A stretch of 25,987 nt of DNA from IMG/VR virus record IMGVR_UViG_3300024999_001208, positions 1 through 25,987 of that record. One strand, written 5' to 3'. Source of the stretch: a virus. Below the pieces are notes generated by a model. That model saw nothing but the letters and a program-made list of their open reading frames with translations. It did no database searches and was not told where the DNA came from. Shown in pieces: positions 578-25,420 of the stretch. Both the position numbers and the translations under genes were made by a program. Numbering within the stretch: the first letter of the stretch is position 1; every line of letters starts with the position of its first letter.

Positions 578-1303
578 TTAACGAGGATAAATAATACGCG
601 GGTGAGCAATTGTAGAGACCGTCCCACCTTGAATAAGGGTTACACCTTTTCTTAAATCTTGTATGTTTCTAACTCCGGGCAAATAAAATACAAGATTTTG
701 AGGTCTTACAAACCGAGGAGAAAAACCTTTTGCTAAAATAGCAACCTCTTCATCTGTCAGCGCAACATTCCAAATTGCCGTTTCAGCTAAATAGCCATTC
801 CACTTATCAGTTGTCCCGCCACTCCAAGGCCCATATCCAATATTTAACTCATTAGGAACTTGCGTGTTGTCATTTAGGTTAGTATCAGTCCCCTTTGAAC
901 CACCGTTCAAATAAGCGGCTCTACTACTTTGTGATGCCCACACGCCCGTTGCGTGTTGCCACACACCATGAGATGAGGCGGCCGTTGCATTAGCTCTATG
1001 ATACCCGTCGGTAGACCAAGAATTTGCTGATATTGTCCACTGTCCTCCTATATCATTTATTATCAATCTGATTTGTTTATCGTCTCCTCCTGTGTGCGCG
1101 GAGTCTGCTAATGCTAAAAGTGGCTCAAAAGGAACACCACTTGTAGTGCTGTAATACCAAGTCGCCATAGTGAACGGCTCAATACTGACTGGTGCAGAGG
1201 CCACCTCAAGATAATCATTTGTTCCGTCAAACTCTAAAGCGGCATACGCAGACGCACTTGCAAAAAGAAAGAGTATTGAGATTAAAAAAATTAGTTTTTT
1301 CAT
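578..1303 (-). CDS. Secreted LamG / concanavalin A-like lectin domain protein (241 aa)
   Basis: Residues 1-21 form a classic Sec signal peptide: MKK, a hydrophobic core LIFLISILFLF, then ASASAYA with likely cleavage before ALEFDG. Residues 22-205 match the pattern of a LamG-type (laminin G-like, concanavalin-like) beta-sandwich: LEFDGTNDYLEV, FTMATWYY, GVWQHATGVW, YLNGG, LNIGYGPW, and WNGYLAETAIWNVALTDEEVAIL near the end of the domain. Such domains bind glycans. The last 35 residues contain FYLPGV, common in phage and Patescibacteria LamG proteins. The gene starts 3 nt after the 951-aa fibre gene. A cleavable signal is unusual for a virion protein, so it may be exported to the host surface, or it may be a receptor-binding accessory whose N-terminus acts as an anchor. 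Confidence 0.75.
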   Translation of the reverse strand: MKKLIFLISILFLFASASAYAALEFDGTNDYLEVASAPVSIEPFTMATWYYSTTSGVPFEPLLALADSAHTGGDDKQIRLIINDIGGQWTISANSWSTDGYHRANATAASSHGVWQHATGVWASQSSRAAYLNGGSKGTDTNLNDNTQVPNELNIGYGPWSGGTTDKWNGYLAETAIWNVALTDEEVAILAKGFSPRFVRPQNLVFYLPGVRNIQDLRKGVTLIQGGTVSTIAHPRIIYPR

Positions 1304-1306
1304 AAA

Positions 1307-4162
1307 CTATTGTTCAATTAAGTCAGCTCCTAATAATTCCAAGTCCCCTGCCGCCGTATCGTTTGCCACGTCTCTGCAAATTTCTAATCTGAAAGTTTCC
1401 CCTCCTATAATAGAATCCATAGCCGAACCATTCGCAATGTTTACCGAAGATGTCGCCACAACGCCTGAAGTTCCGGGGACGGTTAATGCCGTTATAGTGC
1501 TTCGGGCCGAAAATCCTCCCTGCACTGTGTCCAAATCAAGAACAGAGTCATCAAATCTTTCAAACGCGACTGTCCAGCCTCCCGTTCCTGTCGTAGCCGA
1601 GGTTGCCGCCCACGTTGTTTTTACCGTAACGCCACTGCCTCCGTAGTCGTAAGGCATAACATCTGTCCAGTAAGCGCACTCTTGAGTTGTGGTGTCAAAA
1701 TCCAAAACAGGGTGATTATTCCTTGTGTCCAAAGTTGCGAAGTTTGTCGTCGTTGCTTCACTCCCCAAAACAGAGAAGGGAATAAACGCTGTGCCTCGGA
1801 CGCCACCGCCTAACACTACCGTTGAAGAAGCCATCAAAGAATATGGAGAACCTGTAAGCCAGATAGGAGTAGATGTTGAGTTTGCGTTCGCTCCGAAGTT
1901 TGTCGTTGGTGTCCAAGAGAAAGTTCCACCCCCTGCGCTAGTTGCGTCATCTCCGTCACAAAGTCCCGACCCACCTGTTATCGTGGTGCAAAAGTCTGTC
2001 CATGCCGTGCCTGTTACTCCACCAAAAGTAAGTGAAGAGGTGGCGGTTATTGAACCTGCTGTTAATTTACCGATAGTAGAAGAAGCCGTGCTAAAGTTCG
2101 TTGTCGTTCCAAATAGAGAAGTGAATGTAAGCGGGAATGTTAAGTAGTTTGGTAGGGAAAGCGTCCACGTTCGGTTGGCCGCTAAAGACTGCGCGCCAGC
2201 TGAAGATGTAATTTGTGAGGCTGTTCCTGCTATAGTCAAAGTTGTAGCTTGTGCCGCGTATGCCGCCGAGGTATTTTCCGCTTCCGTCCAAGCGTCAGTG
2301 CAGTTCACAACAGCACCAGAAGCGTCTACTCCGAGAGGAAATGAACCAGCCGAACAGTCAGCACCGTCTGCGGCCAAAGCGGTGGCGGTAGAGGCGTTAC
2401 CGGTCAATGCGCCGATGATTGTTGGTGTTGATACCTGTCCACTAAAATACCCATTCCCCGCCACTGAAAGTTGTTGAGAAGGTGTTGTTGTGCCAATTCC
2501 AACTTTCCCGTTTGAGTTTATTACAAACGCCGTGCTGGTCGCGAGCAGAGTTGAGGTAGAAATCCTAAATAAGTCAGATGTGTTGTTGGAGTAACCAGCG
2601 AGATACATTCCCAATCCCGTTGAACCTTGGTTGATGGAGAGTTTGGCGGCTGGTGATGTCGTCCCGATGCCAAGGTTGCCGGTGCTTTCTATTCTAACCC
2701 TTTCGTTCCCGGCGGCCGCACCGCCAGTCATCAATCTAATATCAGCGGAAGCACCAACTGCTGCAATATTAATACCCGCTGCACTACTCTCGCCAAATAA
2801 TGCAACTCTATCCGCCCAGGCAGCATCACTGTAAGTACTTGGATAAGCTGAAAAAGTCAACGCACTGGAAGCCGATTCTACGGTCATTCTTGTCTGAGCC
2901 GCCGTCCCAGTGTTTGGATTCTTAATATAAATACCCTCTATTCCATTCGTACTGCGTTCAGCATGTAACAGGTAGCTAGGACTCGTCGTCCCGATGCCGA
3001 CGTTGCCATTAGAAGTAATCCTCATTTTCTCGCTCGCATTTGTTTGGAACATAAGTGCATTGGCGTTGGTTGCGTGGCTTGAAAGGCCGTACTGAATAAC
3101 ACCTAAAGCATTGTTGGTCGAATCACCGAAGTAGATTGAGCCGGAGTGAACTGTTGTTCCAAGAATGCTCAATCCAGCATTACCGTTGTCCTCCAAGACT
3201 AATTCGGCATTGGAATTTCCAACTCCCCCGCTAGCTCCGTCGTAGATTTCCAGTTTTCTTTGCGGAGTAGTAGTTCCAATCCCGACGTTGCCGCCGTATG
3301 GATTCAAATTAAGATTTCCATTTGTATTAAGAACAGAACCTGTCCCCGTCCTTCCCTGAATAGTGTTGCCGGTATAACCAACCATAACTCCGCCGGTCGA
3401 ACCACCAGCAACAAAATGCCCGCTGATCGTCACATCGGGATTAGTGTTAACAGTCAAATTACTTCCCACCGTAAACTTCGCCCCAGGATTCGTCGTCCCG
3501 ATCCCCACATTCCCATTCTGCAAAACGGTGAGGCCGGACGAGCCGGCGGCTGAAAGACCGCCGGCGAACGTAGAAGTCGCGGTGGTAGAAGTCGCGTTAA
3601 AGTAAGGTGCGCCGATTTTTGTGCCACTTTCAATACCGCCGGAAAAGGTGGAAGTTCCAGTCGCACCGACAGCTATTGCTACGGTCGTAGTCGGGGCGAG
3701 TTTTCCTAATCCGTTTATCTCCCACGCTTGACCGAAAGAGGAGCCACCACCCGAAGAATTTATGACTATCGTATTCGCATTTGAAGACGTGGAAAAGGTT
3801 ACATTCGTTCCCGCTGAAATTGTGTTGAAGCGAAGCACCCCTGCGGATTCGGTGTCAAAGAGATTTGTGCCAGTGCCAAGTGATGAAGCTCCTGTGATGT
3901 CGCCAGCACCTCCTGCCGGTGTGTCAAAAGAGTATGTAAAAGGCGAATCATCGGAAACTTTGAGATACTTTCCGACATCTCCGGCGGTGGCGGTTCCTTT
4001 ACCTGTGCCACCTTGAGAAGCGGTAAATACACGGACATCACCAAGAGTAAGTTGTGATTCTTGTTTTGTATTCTGTTGTGAAAAATACATAGGCACACCG
4101 AATGCAAAAATAGCGGCGAAAATTAGAACGACTGAAGTTGTTATAAATCCTTTATTTTTCAT
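1307..4162 (-). CDS. Tail fibre-like protein with GNVGIGTT repeats (951 aa)
   Basis: This is the largest protein in the window and very probably forms an extended beta-rich fibre. It begins with a hydrophobic helix (residues about 6-27, VVLIFAAIFAFGV) after MKNKG, so it may be membrane-anchored. A QGGTG segment lies near residue 50. Five copies of the motif GN(V/L)GIGTTxP followed by a hydrophobic strand occur near residues 217, 291, 387, 496 and 552. This repeat is common in phage tail fibres and spikes and in Patescibacteria surface proteins. The middle is rich in ATSTST and Gly/Thr/Ser. The C-terminus (from about residue 815) changes composition, with ECAYWTDVMPYDYGG and FRLEICRDV, and resembles a compact tip or trimerisation domain. 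Likely role: adsorption to the host. Confidence 0.75.
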   Translation of the reverse strand: MKNKGFITTSVVLIFAAIFAFGVPMYFSQQNTKQESQLTLGDVRVFTASQGGTGKGTATAGDVGKYLKVSDDSPFTYSFDTPAGGAGDITGASSLGTGTNLFDTESAGVLRFNTISAGTNVTFSTSSNANTIVINSSGGGSSFGQAWEINGLGKLAPTTTVAIAVGATGTSTFSGGIESGTKIGAPYFNATSTTATSTFAGGLSAAGSSGLTVLQNGNVGIGTTNPGAKFTVGSNLTVNTNPDVTISGHFVAGGSTGGVMVGYTGNTIQGRTGTGSVLNTNGNLNLNPYGGNVGIGTTTPQRKLEIYDGASGGVGNSNAELVLEDNGNAGLSILGTTVHSGSIYFGDSTNNALGVIQYGLSSHATNANALMFQTNASEKMRITSNGNVGIGTTSPSYLLHAERSTNGIEGIYIKNPNTGTAAQTRMTVESASSALTFSAYPSTYSDAAWADRVALFGESSAAGINIAAVGASADIRLMTGGAAAGNERVRIESTGNLGIGTTSPAAKLSINQGSTGLGMYLAGYSNNTSDLFRISTSTLLATSTAFVINSNGKVGIGTTTPSQQLSVAGNGYFSGQVSTPTIIGALTGNASTATALAADGADCSAGSFPLGVDASGAVVNCTDAWTEAENTSAAYAAQATTLTIAGTASQITSSAGAQSLAANRTWTLSLPNYLTFPLTFTSLFGTTTNFSTASSTIGKLTAGSITATSSLTFGGVTGTAWTDFCTTITGGSGLCDGDDATSAGGGTFSWTPTTNFGANANSTSTPIWLTGSPYSLMASSTVVLGGGVRGTAFIPFSVLGSEATTTNFATLDTRNNHPVLDFDTTTQECAYWTDVMPYDYGGSGVTVKTTWAATSATTGTGGWTVAFERFDDSVLDLDTVQGGFSARSTITALTVPGTSGVVATSSVNIANGSAMDSIIGGETFRLEICRDVANDTAAGDLELLGADLIEQ
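2485..3514 (-). repeat. Five imperfect ~23-bp coding repeats in the fibre gene
   Basis: On the plus strand the segments beginning near 2485, 2658, 2985, 3270 and 3492 share the form GTcGTcCCgATgCC followed by GACGTTGCC or a close variant. They encode the GNVGIGTTxP peptide on the minus strand. The copies at 2658 and 2985 are identical over the first 14 bases, and the unit between them is of variable length. Such DNA-level similarity offers sites for homologous recombination and unit gain or loss in a host-range protein. Confidence 0.6.
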
Positions 4163-13521: not shown

Positions 13522-14129
13522 TAGTTAGTTTCTTTAACTGGTCTAAGTTCCGCCCAAATGTTAGATGGTTGGGAAGAAACGGGAACAGTAAATAACACTT
13601 TGAAATACCTAGCTCTATCGGGGTTAGGAATTTGAATTGTAACCGTTGTCGTTGCACTAGAATTTCCTGACAAAACGTCAGTTGAAGTGGCTACCTGTTG
13701 GTATGTCCGATAGAATCCGGGGTTTATAAACTCACGCGAAGTTGTCGCAGTAGCACTCGTAAATGTTTTGTAAACTTCTTGACTCCACTGTTTGCCGTCC
13801 ATTGAAGTCTGAACATAAATATTCACGATACTCTGCGGTGAAGATGAAGCCGCGTGCTGAATTGTCAGATTAAGAGTTTTTGGAACAGTGTTATTACCTG
13901 CCGTAGTATCACAAAGTGTAGAATTTCCTATTGTGCTGGTCGCTCTGCCTTGCGACATCCAATTCACGGTGCTAGTTGAAGAAGAAAGCCCATCAGTATA
14001 ACAGGGAGAATAAGAGTAGAACCCCGGATTCGCCCTTGCTAAAAACGGGTTAGAAGAATAGTAGAAAGCGCCAAGTGCGATGGCGACCAATCCTACAAGT
14101 GTGCCAAGTGTAATTTTCAATGATTTCAT
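13521..14129 (-). CDS. Membrane-anchored structural-module protein, unknown (202 aa)
   Basis: I choose the ATG at 14129 because it gives a natural N-terminus, MKSLKITLGTLVGLVAIALGAFYY, and is preceded by the A/T-rich context (TTATTAAA) seen at many starts here. A longer frame upstream to 14264 overlaps the previous gene and reads as unlikely sequence. Residues 6-24 form a membrane helix. The rest is Ser/Thr-rich and beta-like, with SSSTSTVNWMSQGRATST, IVNIYVQTSMDGKQWSQEVYKTF and RYFKVLFTVPVS, reminiscent of a small galactose-binding-like or fibronectin-like fold. No family is assigned. It may be a minor virion or surface-exposed protein. Confidence 0.55.
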   Translation of the reverse strand: MKSLKITLGTLVGLVAIALGAFYYSSNPFLARANPGFYSYSPCYTDGLSSSTSTVNWMSQGRATSTIGNSTLCDTTAGNNTVPKTLNLTIQHAASSSPQSIVNIYVQTSMDGKQWSQEVYKTFTSATATTSREFINPGFYRTYQQVATSTDVLSGNSSATTTVTIQIPNPDRARYFKVLFTVPVSSQPSNIWAELRPVKETN

Positions 14130-14168
14130 TTTAATAAATAAGTTTTTAATAAGGCATTTGCCTCTATC

Positions 14169-14195
14169 TCCCGCCCTATCACAAGTAAGGCGGGA
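14169..14195 (-). other. GC-rich hairpin in the gap before the 202-aa gene
   Basis: On the minus strand TCCCGCC and GGCGGGA (7 bp, six of them G-C) flank a 13-nt loop in the 79-nt gap between two anchored-protein genes. No T-run follows, so it is not a standard terminator. An mRNA-stabilising or processing element is possible. Confidence 0.4.
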
Positions 14196-14208
14196 TAAGA
14201 AGCAAACG

Positions 14209-14727
14209 CTAAATATCTCCGTAGAGAATGTTTGTCGTTGAAGCGACACCGCCAGTAGCACCAAGCGTCCCAGTTCTACCCATATCGTTCTCCCACATCA
14301 AGGTTACGTAGCCCGCTGTAGTGGAGGCTTTTGCACCAACCAGATGGAACGGAAGTCCAATAAAGACATCTGCGACCGCAGAAGAATAAGGCGAAGAAGT
14401 AGACATCATAGCGAACACTAAATCGCCTGAAGCTACACCTGTAACTGCACAGTCATACGGCGCGGTTGTGGAAGCAACTTGCGCAGTGTTGGCACCAATG
14501 ATTGAAGTGCAAGAAAACATCTTCAATTCGGTAAATTCCGAACCGTTGTCTCCAATTTTCATTCCATTAGCCGCGGGAGCCGTAGCTGTTCCGATACTAA
14601 TTCCGTGCTGAAAACGAGTTCCACTGCCTAGCTCTATTGCCACTTGCTTTACCTGAGGAAAAACATATCCACCGACTGCGATTACTATCGCAATCAGTAT
14701 CCCACCATACACAATTTTGAAGTTCAT
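14209..14727 (-). CDS. Membrane-anchored structural-module protein, unknown (172 aa)
   Basis: The N-terminus MNFKIVYGGILIAIVIAVGGYVFPQ is a membrane helix over about residues 5-24. The remainder (SGTRFQHGISIGTATAPAANG, MKIGDNGSEFTELKMFSC, YDCAVTGVASGDLVFAMM, YVTLMWENDMGRTGTLG) is beta-rich with two Cys (about positions 72 and 92) that could pair. The LKMFSC and GVASGDLVF pattern resembles small beta proteins found with phage fibres and capsids, but I cannot name a family. It is the gene directly after the major capsid protein, where head fibres or minor head proteins often lie. The anchor parallels the 202-, 524- and 951-aa proteins. Confidence 0.55.
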   Translation of the reverse strand: MNFKIVYGGILIAIVIAVGGYVFPQVKQVAIELGSGTRFQHGISIGTATAPAANGMKIGDNGSEFTELKMFSCTSIIGANTAQVASTTAPYDCAVTGVASGDLVFAMMSTSSPYSSAVADVFIGLPFHLVGAKASTTAGYVTLMWENDMGRTGTLGATGGVASTTNILYGDI

Positions 14728-17527: not shown

Positions 17528-17573
17528 AGATTTAAGGCTCTATCAAAAGCCATCAAGTTTAGACCTTGTAACT

Positions 17574-17590
17574 ACTTGGAATTACTCCAA
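17574..17590 (-). other. Small palindromic hairpin after the terminator
   Basis: CTTGGA-GTAAT-TCCAAG on the minus strand gives a 6-bp stem with a 5-nt loop. It lies 5 nt downstream of the terminator U-run and about 45 nt upstream of the scaffold start. It may be a second element of the same leader. Confidence 0.35.
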
Positions 17591-17595
17591 GCGAC

Positions 17596-17617
17596 AAAAA
17601 ACCGCATTGAGCGGCTT
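17596..17617 (-). terminator. Intrinsic terminator-like hairpin before the scaffold gene
   Basis: The minus strand reads AAGCCGC-TCAAT-GCGGTTTTTTG. The stem AAGCCGC/GCGGTTT has 7 pairs (one G-U), a 5-nt loop, and is followed by a run of six T that the stem partly uses. It lies 68 nt upstream of the scaffold gene and downstream of the 20-codon mini-gene. I see no convincing promoter between it and the scaffold start, so it probably lets a share of transcripts through and lowers or tunes expression of the head genes. Confidence 0.55.
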
Positions 17618-17703
17618 AATAGGTTGTCTCCTGAGGCAAGTCAAGAGGCAACCAATCCAGTCGCCCAACCAGTGCTTGCCCACTGCGTTAATAAATTTAC
17701 AAA
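17618..17703 (-). other. Structured non-coding stretch upstream of the terminator
   Basis: This gap of 86 nt holds no gene. On the minus strand it can form CAGTG-GGCAAG-CACTG (5 bp) and GGCGAC-TGGATTG-GTTGCC (6 bp with one G-U pair that exists only on this strand). GAGGCAA occurs twice as a direct repeat. An alternative GGTTG/CAACC pairing with CTC/GAG would compete with the second hairpin, which is the kind of arrangement seen in attenuators. Confidence 0.35.
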
Positions 17704-18630: not shown

Positions 18631-20562
18631 CTAAACTCCTAGTGGTGTGGCAACAGGCGAAGGCATTTTAGCAGGCAAAGCGGGATTAGCCCCTTGTATT
18701 GCAGGATTTTGCATAGGAGGAGTTTTAAGGACAAAGTCATCACCCTTACTTCTAAAGAAAGCATACATATACTCACGAAGGAATGCTTCAGCGTCAATCA
18801 ATGGATCAGCTCTAAGTTGTCCATACATATTCTGCAACATAATCTGCATTTGCTGTTGGTTTTGAATGAACATTTCTTCAGGGTCAAAAGAAATAAGATA
18901 TTTCATTCGTGCGGCCATTTCGGGATTCATTTCAATAATATCCGACTTCTGTTCGGGGTAACCTGATTCTTCGGCTAGTTTCAAAGCGTAATTGTCCTTC
19001 TCCTTATCAGTCATTTCAGTTCCCACAAAACCTTCTTGGAATCTCAACACCTTCCCCATTCTTTTACCTTTAGTCATACGATTAGGCAAAACAAACTGGC
19101 GATACTTTTCTTTCATTCCACCACCTGTAATTTCAGTTATTTGCGGAATAGAAAGATTGCGAACAGCAATATCAACCATCAAACGAGTATAAGCAGTAAT
19201 TGACTGTCCCAATACTTTCCCAGTGCCTTTGATTATAGTTCTGCTGGATTGCGTAGACTGCACGATTGCCGTAGCTTTTTGAGACGCTTCAGGCAACTGT
19301 CCAGATTGAGTATCGGAAATTGACGAGTCTTCAATTGATTTCTTAATTTCAGAAAGCGCGGCGTAAGCGTTGCCAGTTTTAGGAGGAAGAATGGCGCGAA
19401 CATCAAAATCTTTGCTCTTTGCGCTTATATGCGCGCCGGGGAAGATTACCGAAGTGTTTACGGCATTATCCTCATCACCCGTTGAAACTGTAGGAGGCAA
19501 CAAATCAATTATTTCCCTGTTCAACACATTTCTTGAGAACTCATCATAGAAAGAATCTTCCCATTGAAGCGTATTCATTAGAGATTTATAGAAAGCAAAG
19601 TGTTCGGAGATTAAAGAATAGCCAAATGGAACGATATTGTATTTTGGTTGATTCTTTAAGTCCCTGTGTTTAACAGGATTCCACTCAGTATTCTCCGAAC
19701 CCATATACACTCCTCCGAGATACGGAATCTCCGTGTCATCTGCACGCCAACTAAATATAGTTTCTTTTACATAATTGGGATTTTCGGAATCAAATACATC
19801 GTAGAATAAACCGTCTTCGCCATTGAATACTGCAGTGTTGCCTTTTTGCACATAGTCCCAGTTAGGATGTTTGCCATATTTCTTTTTGGCATCCGAATAG
19901 TCAAGATATTTGTTTTTAATAATGCAATTCTGTCTTTGAAAATTGAAAGGAGATAAATAGGCATTGGTTATCATCACATCGGTTGCACCATAAACAGGGG
20001 CGCGAAAGCCGGAAAGCTCTTCGTCCAACACCTCTTTCGTTCTGTAACCCTTTTCAGTCTTTTCCTTAATATTCTGCATTACTTCCGCCCATTCTGCGCC
20101 GAGATATGTAACGGGGTTCATCATCATTGCCATTGATACTTGAATAAACGAAGAACCGTAATCAGAGTTCTCCGCCAACCACTCCACAAGTCCTCGCATA
20201 AAGTCTCCAGCCGCTCTATCCTCTTTGTTATCATCATCCTGTGCGGAGATTCCGGCATAAAGAAAACCCGCAGTAAGTTGAGCGTGCATTGCGACACCAC
20301 GTTTGCGGGCTTCAGAGCGCGTGCCTTTCCATTTCCACGCTTCTTTGGGGTCGGTTGAAGATTCATCCACATAAGCATTCCAAATCTTCTTACCGTTTTG
20401 CTCATCGTCTTTTAGGGAGCGATTATTAAGTTCGGGATAAGCTTGCGTTAGAACTTGGTTTCCAATCTCATAATTCTCTTGAGCATATTTAATTAACTCC
20501 TGCTCTGGGCCGGAAGGTTGGTAGAGAGAGATAGACTTTTTGTCAAGATAGTCGCTTATCAC
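18631..20562 (-). CDS. Portal protein (643 aa)
   Basis: Size and position match portal proteins of P22-like phages, which form the dodecameric DNA channel at one capsid vertex. Features seen: an N-terminal helical clip (LIKYAQENYEIGNQVLTQAYPEL), WKWKGTRSEARKRGVAMHAQLTAGFL, a wing-like block (VTYLGAEWAEVMQNI), NIVPFGYSLISEHFAFYKSLMNTL, and the helix ATAIVQSTQSSRTIIKGTGKVLGQSITAYTRLMVDIAVRNL, typical of the portal crown and stem. The C-terminus is Pro/Ala-rich (PPMQNPAIQGANPALPAKMPSPVA). I accept GTG at 20562 as start because no in-frame ATG lies nearby. The approximately 40 nt before it are A-rich and follow a large RNA structure, so translation may depend on that leader. Confidence 0.8.
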   Translation of the reverse strand: MISDYLDKKSISLYQPSGPEQELIKYAQENYEIGNQVLTQAYPELNNRSLKDDEQNGKKIWNAYVDESSTDPKEAWKWKGTRSEARKRGVAMHAQLTAGFLYAGISAQDDDNKEDRAAGDFMRGLVEWLAENSDYGSSFIQVSMAMMMNPVTYLGAEWAEVMQNIKEKTEKGYRTKEVLDEELSGFRAPVYGATDVMITNAYLSPFNFQRQNCIIKNKYLDYSDAKKKYGKHPNWDYVQKGNTAVFNGEDGLFYDVFDSENPNYVKETIFSWRADDTEIPYLGGVYMGSENTEWNPVKHRDLKNQPKYNIVPFGYSLISEHFAFYKSLMNTLQWEDSFYDEFSRNVLNREIIDLLPPTVSTGDEDNAVNTSVIFPGAHISAKSKDFDVRAILPPKTGNAYAALSEIKKSIEDSSISDTQSGQLPEASQKATAIVQSTQSSRTIIKGTGKVLGQSITAYTRLMVDIAVRNLSIPQITEITGGGMKEKYRQFVLPNRMTKGKRMGKVLRFQEGFVGTEMTDKEKDNYALKLAEESGYPEQKSDIIEMNPEMAARMKYLISFDPEEMFIQNQQQMQIMLQNMYGQLRADPLIDAEAFLREYMYAFFRSKGDDFVLKTPPMQNPAIQGANPALPAKMPSPVATPLGV

Positions 20563-20602
20563 GAAAATGTTTTTATTTTTTGTTGTTATAAATTCTTATC
20601 AA

Positions 20603-20875
20603 CGTTCTGACAAGCAAGCGTTTTTTACCTCTGAAAGAAGTAATTTGCCTGCCAGAACGCTGGCAACAATCTGTAACAATATCTTTGAAGCTCGTTTACC
20701 TAATTAGGATACCGCTTCTTAATCAGATTCGGAATTAGTCAGATGGCTGGGCAAGAAACGCTAAACTTGTTTTCCCAGCTTTCGCACTAATTCCTAAAAT
20801 GAAGTTGTTTATTTTACCGACAAAGTTTTAAGTGTTTCGCCGGACAGCACTTTTTGATATTGAATTGTAACTAAC
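20603..20875 (-). ncRNA. Structured RNA / portal leader with pseudoknot-like pairing
   Basis: No gene is present in the 347 nt between 20910 and the portal start. On the minus strand two domains are clear. Domain I: GGAATTAGT (20794-20786) pairs with ACTAATTCC (20739-20731), enclosing GCTGGG/CCCAGC and CAAG/CTTG with a 4-A bulge. Domain II: a 14-bp helix (20659-20646 with 20616-20603) with two G-U pairs, an internal loop, then TTACTTCT-TTC-AGAGGTAA (8 bp, one G-U). The apical loop of domain I contains AGCGTTT (20762-20756), complementary in 7 pairs to AAACGCT in the internal loop (20623-20617). The G-U pairs would be A-C mismatches on the other strand, favouring a minus-strand RNA. Its class is unknown. 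A competing hairpin (TGCCAG-CGTT-CTGGCA, 20665-20650) overlaps domain II. Confidence 0.6.
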
Positions 20876-20881
20876 TAAACC

Positions 20882-20906
20882 ATTATACCATAAAAACAAA
20901 AGTCAA
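20882..20906 (-). promoter_or_regulatory. Extended -10 promoter upstream of the structured RNA
   Basis: The minus strand has TGGTATAAT (20890-20882), a perfect extended -10 element, just after the stop of the peptidase gene. TTGACT lies at 20906-20901, but the spacer of 13 nt is too short for a normal -35, so the extended -10 would do most of the work. Predicted transcription start is near 20875, giving a leader of about 313 nt before the portal. Confidence 0.45.
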
Positions 20907-20909
20907 GCA

Positions 20910-23540: not shown

Positions 23541-23697
23541 CCACTTTTTTTAATGATTTTTGTGGGTCAATTTCAGGGCTAAGAAAAAACTTGATTCTTT
23601 CTAAAATGGTAAGTCTTTTATAGATTCCTTTTTCCTCGTCTACACATTTGTAGTATTTATTATTATATCCCAAAACAATATGTTCATATTTAGTCAT
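23533..23697 (-). CDS. Hypothetical protein (54 aa)
   Basis: The start is set at ATG 23697-23695 because it overlaps the chaperonin stop by 8 nt (ATGACTAA), the same coupling seen between the two small genes upstream. A longer frame to 23754 lies inside the chaperonin gene and is unlikely. The protein begins MTKYEHIVLGYNNKYYKCVDEE and is charged and helical later (RLTILERIKFFLSPEIDPQKSL). No family is recognised. It may be a small accessory protein, possibly linked to chaperonin or packaging by the context. Confidence 0.5.
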   Translation of the reverse strand: MTKYEHIVLGYNNKYYKCVDEEKGIYKRLTILERIKFFLSPEIDPQKSLKKVAD

Positions 23698-25420
23698 TTT
23701 CTTTTGCCATAGCGGCTTCCCGTTTTTGTAAAGCTTCGGCCGTGCCTTCGTCAATTCCGGACTTTACCATTCCCTTATCCTTTGCCCAATAAAGCGTGTA
23801 ACGGTCAAGAGCATTAGCAATCACTTCATACCCCATACGAGGGTCGTGTTCGTCAAATTCAGGAACTATCGCCTTTATGGTAATGATATTAGCAGCAACT
23901 CCAAAGCCGTGTTCCACCTCCAATTCTACCACACGAGCAGGGTCAATAATTTCCTTACCTATTTTCAATTCAGTCCCGCAATTTTCTTGAATCTGATTGT
24001 AAGGAGAGCAAAGAGCGTCGTAAATAAGTAAGTCATCTTTGAATAATTCATTTGCTATCTCCTTTAAGCAAAGACCTCCACCTTTTACATATCCATATTT
24101 CAGTGCCGCTTGGCCTGCAAATACAGCGTCTTCAATCTTGTGTTTAAGCGGTAATGCTTCGGCTTCCGTTGCGGCTCCTACTCGTATTAGGCCACCAGCA
24201 GAGGCCATTGACGCAATTCTTTTTTGGATAAGAGCTTTATGTTCCGGCATTTTAGTAAGCTCCAATCGGGATTTCAAATCAGCAATTCGCTTTTTGGTCT
24301 TTTCGCCTTTAGCACCCCTACCACCGAGCAAGACGGCGTCTTCCCTATCTTCAACACTTTTCACAGTGCATTTTTCTACAAATCCCAAATCAAAACTTTT
24401 AATATCTTTTAGTTTGTCTCCTTTGTTTTTATCAATAAATTTAGCATCACAAAAATCAGCAAGGTCTTGGAAATTATGAGGCGTTAAGTCTTCAGAACCT
24501 AAAGACGGACATTTAATTGGGAAAATCTGTATTCCAGAAGGTCTTGTGCCACCACCGGGGATTGGTTGCGGGGCAATTAACTTCACCATTTGGATTAAGA
24601 CTTCATCAGAGAAATTCGGCGCAAAGACAATCAACTTACTCACTTTCATTTGTCCGGGGTTTAATGTATTCCAAAAAGAAGCAAAATCAACGAGCGTGTC
24701 AATTTTGTAATTTGTTACCAAAACTTCAATGTCTTCGGCAACCATTTCATAACGGTCAGCGTGATTAAGAAATACCGGCGCAGCTATCTTCATTGGGAAT
24801 CTAGCACCCTCAATCACTTCAGTCTCTAATCCACCTTTGAATCCGTCTGTAAGGGAAATAAATCCTTCAGTTCCAGTCTTCCAAATCATCTCGGAAAGTG
24901 TCTTGGCCACTTCGCGATTACCAGCCAAAGAAACGTCAATTACATCTTCTAACTCCTTAATTGTCTTTATCTTTTTGGTTTTTTCCTTGATTGCTTCTTT
25001 GATTTTAGGAACCGCCGCAATGATATGTTTGCGAAGTGAATTTACACCCGTGTTTTGTGAATCAAGCCCCGTAATTTGAACACTTGTATCACTTACTTTT
25101 GATAAAGCGTCATTGATAAGTTTAGCGGAAATTACTATCGTTGACGTAGTGCCATCACCTACCTTTTCACCTGTTTTACTCGCGCCTTCTTTGAAAGCGG
25201 TTGCTACGAGATTCTCAAACTCGCCTTTAGGTTGAATGTTTTTTGCAACTGTAACACCATCATTGGTTATTCTTGAACCACGGTTGAATGAACGGTCTAA
25301 AAGAACTCCGGCTCCCTCCGGCCCAAGTGTTACACGAACTGGGTCGCTAATAGCATTCACACCACGAAGAATTACTTTACGAGCATCACCGTGCAATTTA
25401 GTCTCAGTTTTTCTTGCCAT
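23690..25420 (-). CDS. Divergent GroEL-type chaperonin (576 aa)
   Basis: Clear GroEL signatures are present: GDARKVILRGVNAISDPVRVTLGPEG at the N-terminus, ITNDGVTVAK with the catalytic Asp54 (GroEL Asp52), VGDGTTSTIV with Asp89 (GroEL Asp87), and VGAATEAEALPLKHKIEDAV with Asp431 (GroEL Asp398), then YVKGGGLCLKEI. Apical and C-terminal parts diverge. About 30 extra residues lie around the apical region (for example APQPIPGGGTRPSG near 283-296). The usual Gly-Gly-Met tail is absent; the end is EALQKREAAMAKEND. All ATPase residues I can place are kept, so ATP-driven folding is plausible. No GroES gene is visible. It heads the structural operon, so a role in folding capsid or fibre proteins is likely. 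A few phages are known to encode GroEL-like proteins. Confidence 0.85.
   Translation of the reverse strand: MARKTETKLHGDARKVILRGVNAISDPVRVTLGPEGAGVLLDRSFNRGSRITNDGVTVAKNIQPKGEFENLVATAFKEGASKTGEKVGDGTTSTIVISAKLINDALSKVSDTSVQITGLDSQNTGVNSLRKHIIAAVPKIKEAIKEKTKKIKTIKELEDVIDVSLAGNREVAKTLSEMIWKTGTEGFISLTDGFKGGLETEVIEGARFPMKIAAPVFLNHADRYEMVAEDIEVLVTNYKIDTLVDFASFWNTLNPGQMKVSKLIVFAPNFSDEVLIQMVKLIAPQPIPGGGTRPSGIQIFPIKCPSLGSEDLTPHNFQDLADFCDAKFIDKNKGDKLKDIKSFDLGFVEKCTVKSVEDREDAVLLGGRGAKGEKTKKRIADLKSRLELTKMPEHKALIQKRIASMASAGGLIRVGAATEAEALPLKHKIEDAVFAGQAALKYGYVKGGGLCLKEIANELFKDDLLIYDALCSPYNQIQENCGTELKIGKEIIDPARVVELEVEHGFGVAANIITIKAIVPEFDEHDPRMGYEVIANALDRYTLYWAKDKGMVKSGIDEGTAEALQKREAAMAKEND

Follow-up and report, generated by a model that had tools for sequence, protein, structure and literature searches.

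The omega-RNA of IscB and the bridge RNA of IS110 are structured RNAs that precede their protein gene, lying directly upstream of a mobile-element nuclease or recombinase gene on the same strand. Pseudoknotted riboswitches and translational operators occupy 5' leaders, and the pRNA of phi29 is a phage RNA found near packaging genes. STAXI is a pseudoknot RNA that occurs in tandem copies, often near integrases and other DNA-handling genes, and Lacto-int is a candidate motif in Lactobacillales and phages (PMC2864571). Here we describe the 347-nucleotide (nt) gap at 20563-20909 of a linear IMG/VR virus record (IMGVR_UViG_3300024999_001208; its 25,987 bases are called the window below), which precedes a portal-like gene on the minus strand. 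Sequence comparison indicates that this interval encodes a single RNA of ~200-300 nt and is a diverged member of a real, strongly conserved and apparently undescribed RNA family.

Homologues and compensatory base changes

Relatives of the phage were collected by protein comparison and comprise 77 viral contigs plus one contig of a Candidatus Kaiserbacteria metagenome-assembled genome, which points to Patescibacteria as the host group. A covariance model (R2) built only from the central hairpin of the interval (20719-20800, minus strand) matched a Patescibacteria genome among 380 (E 1.3e-9) and then seven of the 297 genomes in one order, the first genome included (E 2e-4 to 1.4e-11; loci L143 and L145-L150). 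A retrained model, R3, added L151-L153, bringing the accepted bacterial copies to ten. Another match, L154 (29.5 bits), which sits inside an open reading frame, was discarded as false. L164 (1501-1593; 40.7 bits), from another Patescibacteria genome and with no recombinase within 1.5 kb downstream, is a possible remote member and was kept outside the ten. The order that holds the bacterial copies also appears to hold the Kaiserbacteria genome with a phage relative (a search of that genome's order drew G256).

The first-pass annotation of this DNA had held that homologues lacking compensating changes would count against a structured RNA, and had called for an Rfam search and for related sequences to be collected and examined for covariation. 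The RNA passed this comparison. In a fitted alignment of seven sequences (A8), 99.3% of cells are paired and 11 of 21 pairs are changed on both sides, compared to 80% and 6 in shuffles, and an unfitted MAFFT alignment gave 24 pairs, 12 of them with double changes. A composite, A10, was put together by hand from the paired parts of 11 sequences and is hence biased towards structure; with the pseudoknot included, 98.5% of its cells are paired and 23 of 31 pairs covary, a result reached in 0 of 500 shuffles, while slid controls are ~40% paired. Within A10, all 5 counted pairs of a small downstream hairpin (hairpin C, 11 sequences) covary, and in the pseudoknot helix 96% of cells are paired and 6 of the 7 pairs covary.

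This pseudoknot was noticed in the first-pass annotation as a 7-nt complementarity. Strand 1 (20756..20762, minus; AGCGUUU) forms the final 7 nt of the hairpin A apical loop, and strand 2 (20617..20623, minus; AAACGCU) lies immediately 3' of hairpin C, in a 7-nt bulge of another hairpin; opening it costs ~1 kcal/mol in the model. On the window sequence alone the complementarity is weak and merely suggestive, because loop-loop runs of at least 7 arise in 9% of shuffled leaders (at least 6 in 29%). It becomes decisive because homologues conserve the pairing by compensation. Every accepted copy except L149, where the complement at this place is just 5 nt, has a 6-10 nt complement of its apical loop directly 3' of the small downstream hairpin, and the paired letters differ: AGCGUUU/AAACGCU in the window, UCGACUU/AAGUCGA in L143, CCAGCUU/AAGCUGG in L146 and AGACACU/AGUGUCU in L150. 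The complement averages 7.7 nt within a locus versus 5.7 nt between mismatched loci, and the observed total was reached in 0 of 20,000 permutations. Thus, comparison of the copies indicates that the loop-to-distal pairing is a 7-bp pseudoknot kept by compensating changes.

Hairpin A (20731..20794, minus), located by the covariance model matches and by covariation, is the conserved core. As the first-pass annotation had described, a 9-bp helix (20794-20786/20739-20731) encloses 6+4 bp in the minimum free energy (MFE) structure; the 9 bp lead to a tandem-mismatch internal loop (GCGAAA/CAUCUG), then GCUGGG/CCCAGC, a 4-A bulge and CAAG/CUUG. The window thus has the hairpin A features of the family (9+6+4 bp, a GCGAAA-type internal loop and an A-rich 4-nt bulge) and its pseudoknot, from the hairpin A apical loop to the strand immediately 3' of hairpin C. 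Although its sequence has diverged, the phage copy has lost none of the core pairs, and both the conserved letters of its internal loop and its pseudoknot are intact. Across the family the conserved letters cluster in the internal loop (GCGAAA opposite CRUCUG) and the 4-nt A-rich bulge, beside the pseudoknot, an arrangement that would suit ligand or protein binding.

The remaining parts of the phage RNA are more peripheral. The 5' hairpin P2 (20817..20843, minus) has 8 bp (CCGGCGAA/UUUGUCGG; present in the MFE structure, mean pair probability 0.97), and linker hairpin D (20687..20718, minus; GAAGC...GCUUC) scores 0.98 in the MFE; several homologues have upstream hairpins resembling P2, as judged by eye only, and linker hairpins comparable to D in an informal comparison. 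Hairpin C (20625..20643, minus; UUACUUCU-UUC-AGAGGUAA) has an 8-bp stem (20643-20636/20632-20625) and tops long helix B (20583..20679, minus), which encloses it together with pseudoknot strand 2. The first-pass annotation was right about this 8-bp hairpin and about a long helix with G-U pairs, which in the MFE structure comprises 18 bp, 3 of them G-U, against the 14 and 2 given there. Helix B occurs in the phage copy only. A model of this long 3' hairpin (R1; 20575-20690) gave one chance-level match in 380 genomes and none in the phage relatives or L143, and the helix is therefore taken as specific to this phage. A competing hairpin (20650-20665) overlaps this phage-only helix, which leaves a proposed two-state switch without comparative support.

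Direct sequence searches returned little. Nucleotide BLAST of the leader against 287 Patescibacteria genomes and the phage collection gave short matches only, mostly to its A-rich tail. Three exact-pattern scans of viral contigs found the identical contig L002 (the closest contig and the same virus, 99.6% identical over 7.5 kb, with an identical leader) and other sites; those from two scans were unrelated on reading, and those from the third (L139-L142) had no match to R3, the only model applied to them.

No gene of at least 47 codons lies within the interval, in agreement with the first-pass annotation, which had also favoured a minus-strand RNA. Fold z-scores point to the same strand: -6.35 for the 347-nt minus-strand RNA and -6.94 for 317 nt without the promoter (20563-20879), versus -4.29 for the plus-strand RNA and -2.9/-2.4 for single-stranded DNA, and the most structured 150-nt stretch of the whole window is 20551-20700 on the minus strand (z -5.5). 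A palindrome acting at the DNA level was rejected, since the DNA folds less strongly than the minus-strand RNA and the covariation tracks RNA; the leader hairpins were rejected as terminators because they have no U-run.

Rfam 15 gave no match to the window at the gathering score and none among permissive matches, and a search of the open-access literature found no description of such an RNA. The family resembles STAXI and Lacto-int solely as an integrase-linked candidate motif, the likeness to Lacto-int being by name only; STAXI forms tandem copies whereas this family is a single RNA with no Rfam match. The pseudoknot riboswitches and translational operators share its place in a 5' leader, its conserved non-Watson-Crick core and its loop-to-distal pseudoknot upstream of a start codon, but it matches no known aptamer class. 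In the homologue loci, Rfam 15 found only the LOOT RNA (RF03000), at other positions. Three of the ten bacterial copies have LOOT no more than 1.5 kb away (L147, 2071-2195; L148, 2702-2823; L150, 40-154); it has its own place and fold, is on the opposite strand in two of the three loci and is absent from the window.

Promoter geometry and a probable lineage-specific insertion

The sequence and its relatives place a minus-strand promoter at 20882..20906, with a -35-like TTGACT (20906-20901) and the extended -10 TATGGTATAAT (20892-20882). Its core, TGGTATAAT at 20890-20882, is the element that the first-pass annotation had seen at the 5' end of the gap. The motif TGnTATAAT occurs twice on the minus strand of the window and not at all on the plus strand, versus 0.63 expected per strand after shuffling. 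Transcription is predicted to start at ~20876, and the whole leader RNA would then span 20563..20876 (minus).

Relatives place a matching promoter directly before the portal start (L003, L029, L012 and many others). In L003 and L029 the portal ATG lies 7-8 nt beyond an extended -10 promoter, which itself comes after the same 136-amino acid (aa) gene that precedes the gap in the window. The best -10-like element ends 6-8 nt before the portal start in 20 of 61 loci (the window's twin included), and some of these elements score weakly. Elements at this spacing, often of the extended TGnTATAAT form, were seen in L027, L029, L031, L032, L034-L036, L040, L049, L055, L057, L058 and others. A spacing of 6-8 nt is the geometry expected for a leaderless mRNA; the portal mRNA of many relatives is apparently leaderless, and this property is probably conserved in a family of Patescibacteria phages.

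By contrast, 319 nt separate the promoter from the portal GTG in the window. Compared with the sister phages, the window thus has the leader RNA as an insert that separates promoter and portal start, and the RNA is absent from 50 phage records (relatives or pattern-related phages), including L003 and L029, whose portals are 73% and 60% identical to that of the window. Since sister phages with 6-8 nt at this site have no RNA, this lineage most likely acquired the structured leader. Six-frame comparison revealed no decayed gene in the gap: apart from matches to the portal N-terminus and to the identical contig, the translated peptides have no counterpart in relatives, nor do they match the small genes found at this site in some of them.

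Other relatives have different features at this site. A gene of ~55-70 codons lies between promoter and portal in L063 (2795), L069 (2763), L083 (2834), L067 (2822) and L070 (2049). A small hairpin with an invariant loop, TGCGTAATC, and a varying stem occurs in the portal leaders of L079 (2979), L081 (2678), L101 (2979), L084 (2979) and L085 (1647), and is possibly another leader element. In L071 (~2940-2980) a terminator-like hairpin (GCCC..GGGC, then TTTTT) abuts the portal start.

Candidate roles of the RNA

Each of the ten accepted bacterial copies precedes a large serine recombinase gene that has the same orientation and lies within ~1 kb; the two are adjacent or separated by one or two small genes. 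The downstream proteins, several of which are cut by the locus end, match Pfam Resolvase in 10 of 10 and Recombinase in eight, and the operons that these copies lead are short, with one to three genes. At two loci, L156 and L159, the end of the recombinase gene overlaps the start of a GTPase gene resembling YchF, as would be expected for an integrated element ending at that gene. The copy in the window is followed by the portal gene.

We favour, with somewhat better than even confidence, the view that this RNA acts in cis as a pseudoknotted 5' leader on the portal (late) mRNA, and that it represents a diverged branch of a family whose other copies lead large-serine-recombinase operons in Patescibacteria mobile elements. 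This view draws on the shared fold, the covarying pseudoknot, the absence of the RNA from sisters, and its setting between a conserved promoter upstream and a gene that follows directly. Moreover, the stretch from the RNA to the portal gene has no listed terminator-like site on the minus strand, which favours a leader over a separate small RNA. In the mechanism that we envisage, the RNA would be transcribed from the conserved extended -10 promoter, and the hairpin A loop would pair, co- or post-transcriptionally, with the strand that directly follows hairpin C. The closed pseudoknot, upstream of the start codon, would gate ribosome access to the downstream message or its stability, presumably in response to some factor. 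The source of the RNA may have been a mobile element in the phage's host group, its arrival placing a formerly leaderless gene under RNA control.

Several observations weigh against a cis-acting leader. The distance from pseudoknot strand 2 to the first open frame is 54 nt in the window and ~4-95 nt in most copies, and in L149, where a short frame directly follows the pseudoknot, the recombinase lies ~240 nt away, so that no one geometry of ribosome occlusion fits all copies. When serine-recombinase loci in the order were sampled, the RNA was found at 1 of 30, namely the already known one, and thus a minority of these genes have it. The sister phages imply that the RNA is dispensable for portal expression. 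Finally, the phage pseudoknot strand lies within the extra long helix that homologues lack.

The strongest rival, which we regard as unlikely, is a trans-acting noncoding RNA that works with serine recombinases as regulator, scaffold or guide, the stand-alone phage copy being processed from the portal transcript. The constant position of the ten bacterial copies recalls the omega-RNA and bridge RNA before their partner genes. However, the partner here is a large serine recombinase (PF00239+PF07508), neither a DEDD recombinase nor IscB; a guide segment was not found in the RNA, and the phage copy has no recombinase nearby: the window and 27 relative phage records contain no resolvase-domain gene. 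The rarity of the RNA among sampled recombinase loci also argues against a partner role, as does the ability of serine integrases to recognise DNA through protein alone. That the whole family is an RNA component of a serine-recombinase system (regulating, scaffolding or guiding it), with a stand-alone phage copy that acts in trans or has been redeployed to control the phage's structural genes, seems to us quite improbable.

We would give an equally small chance to a functionless passenger, a non-autonomous fragment of a mobile element lodged between promoter and start codon and folded by virtue of its origin. A lineage-specific insertion where sisters have 6-8 nt, with no homologous copy in the 50 relative records, is consistent with such an origin, but the core pairs, internal-loop letters and pseudoknot that the phage copy keeps despite its divergence from the bacterial copies imply selection after, or shortly before, transfer. 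A processive antitermination element of the put or EAR kind, heading the late operon and helping polymerase past downstream terminators, would suit a site directly after the promoter of a ~20-kb co-oriented gene block that includes a terminator-like hairpin (~17620-17590, minus). We consider this a poor candidate, since bacterial copies head operons of only one to three genes, relatives without the RNA have a homologous terminator-like hairpin, and neither EAR nor any other Rfam family matches. The first-pass annotation was borne out in proposing a structured minus-strand RNA in the portal leader position with real long-range pairing, but its speculation about a phi29 pRNA-like packaging role, which the location between packaging genes and portal would suit, can be all but dismissed: no test here relates the two RNAs, sister phages lack the RNA, TerL belongs with the ordinary terminases (Pfam Terminase_6N, PHROG 2) and not with phi29-type ATPases, and the homologues, without any Rfam match, adjoin recombinases in bacterial chromosomes and mobile elements.

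A compact RNA with a strongly supported pseudoknot, no Rfam match and a consistent link to Patescibacteria serine recombinases raises two questions: what the RNA does at the head of recombinase operons, and why it came to lie between the late promoter and portal gene of a phage. Serine recombinases are widely used genome tools, which would give broad relevance to any RNA that controls or accompanies them. The phage family itself has a leaderless-looking portal message in many members and one lineage converted to a long structured leader.

Neighbouring genes and other structured regions

The minus-strand gene order is a chaperonin-like protein, an HNH protein, a TerS-sized protein, TerL, a 136-aa protein with a HELKH motif, the 347-nt gap, the 643-aa portal-like protein, and head and tail genes. 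The portal-like gene (18631..20562, minus) has a GTG start without a Shine-Dalgarno sequence, preceded by an A-rich stretch that is mostly unpaired in the fold. It is named from its place after TerL, its size and its conservation in the 77 contigs; the protein has no Pfam, PHROG or PDB match, and "portal" is a label inferred from position and size only. The chaperonin-like protein (23690-25420) matches Pfam Cpn60_TCP1, and several relatives also have one upstream of the terminase position. At that position L003 has a 791-codon frame (1180-3555) compared to the 431 codons of the window TerL, possibly reflecting an intein or a different terminase.

Two other regions of the window are structured. 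The second most structured 150-nt stretch, 14101-14250, forms a long hairpin near a gene boundary and scores on both strands (z -4.8/-4.1). A second structured non-coding region (17528-17630, minus) lies upstream of a 224-aa gene, and in one pattern scan its convincing matches were limited to the window virus and L003 (6778-6882, plus). Its three hairpins are conserved between these two with changes that keep pairing: AAGCCGC/GCGGUUU in the window versus AAACUGC/GCGGUUU in L003, CUUGGA/UCCAAG versus CGGAGA/UCUCCG, and CAAG/CUUG versus CAGG/CCUG.
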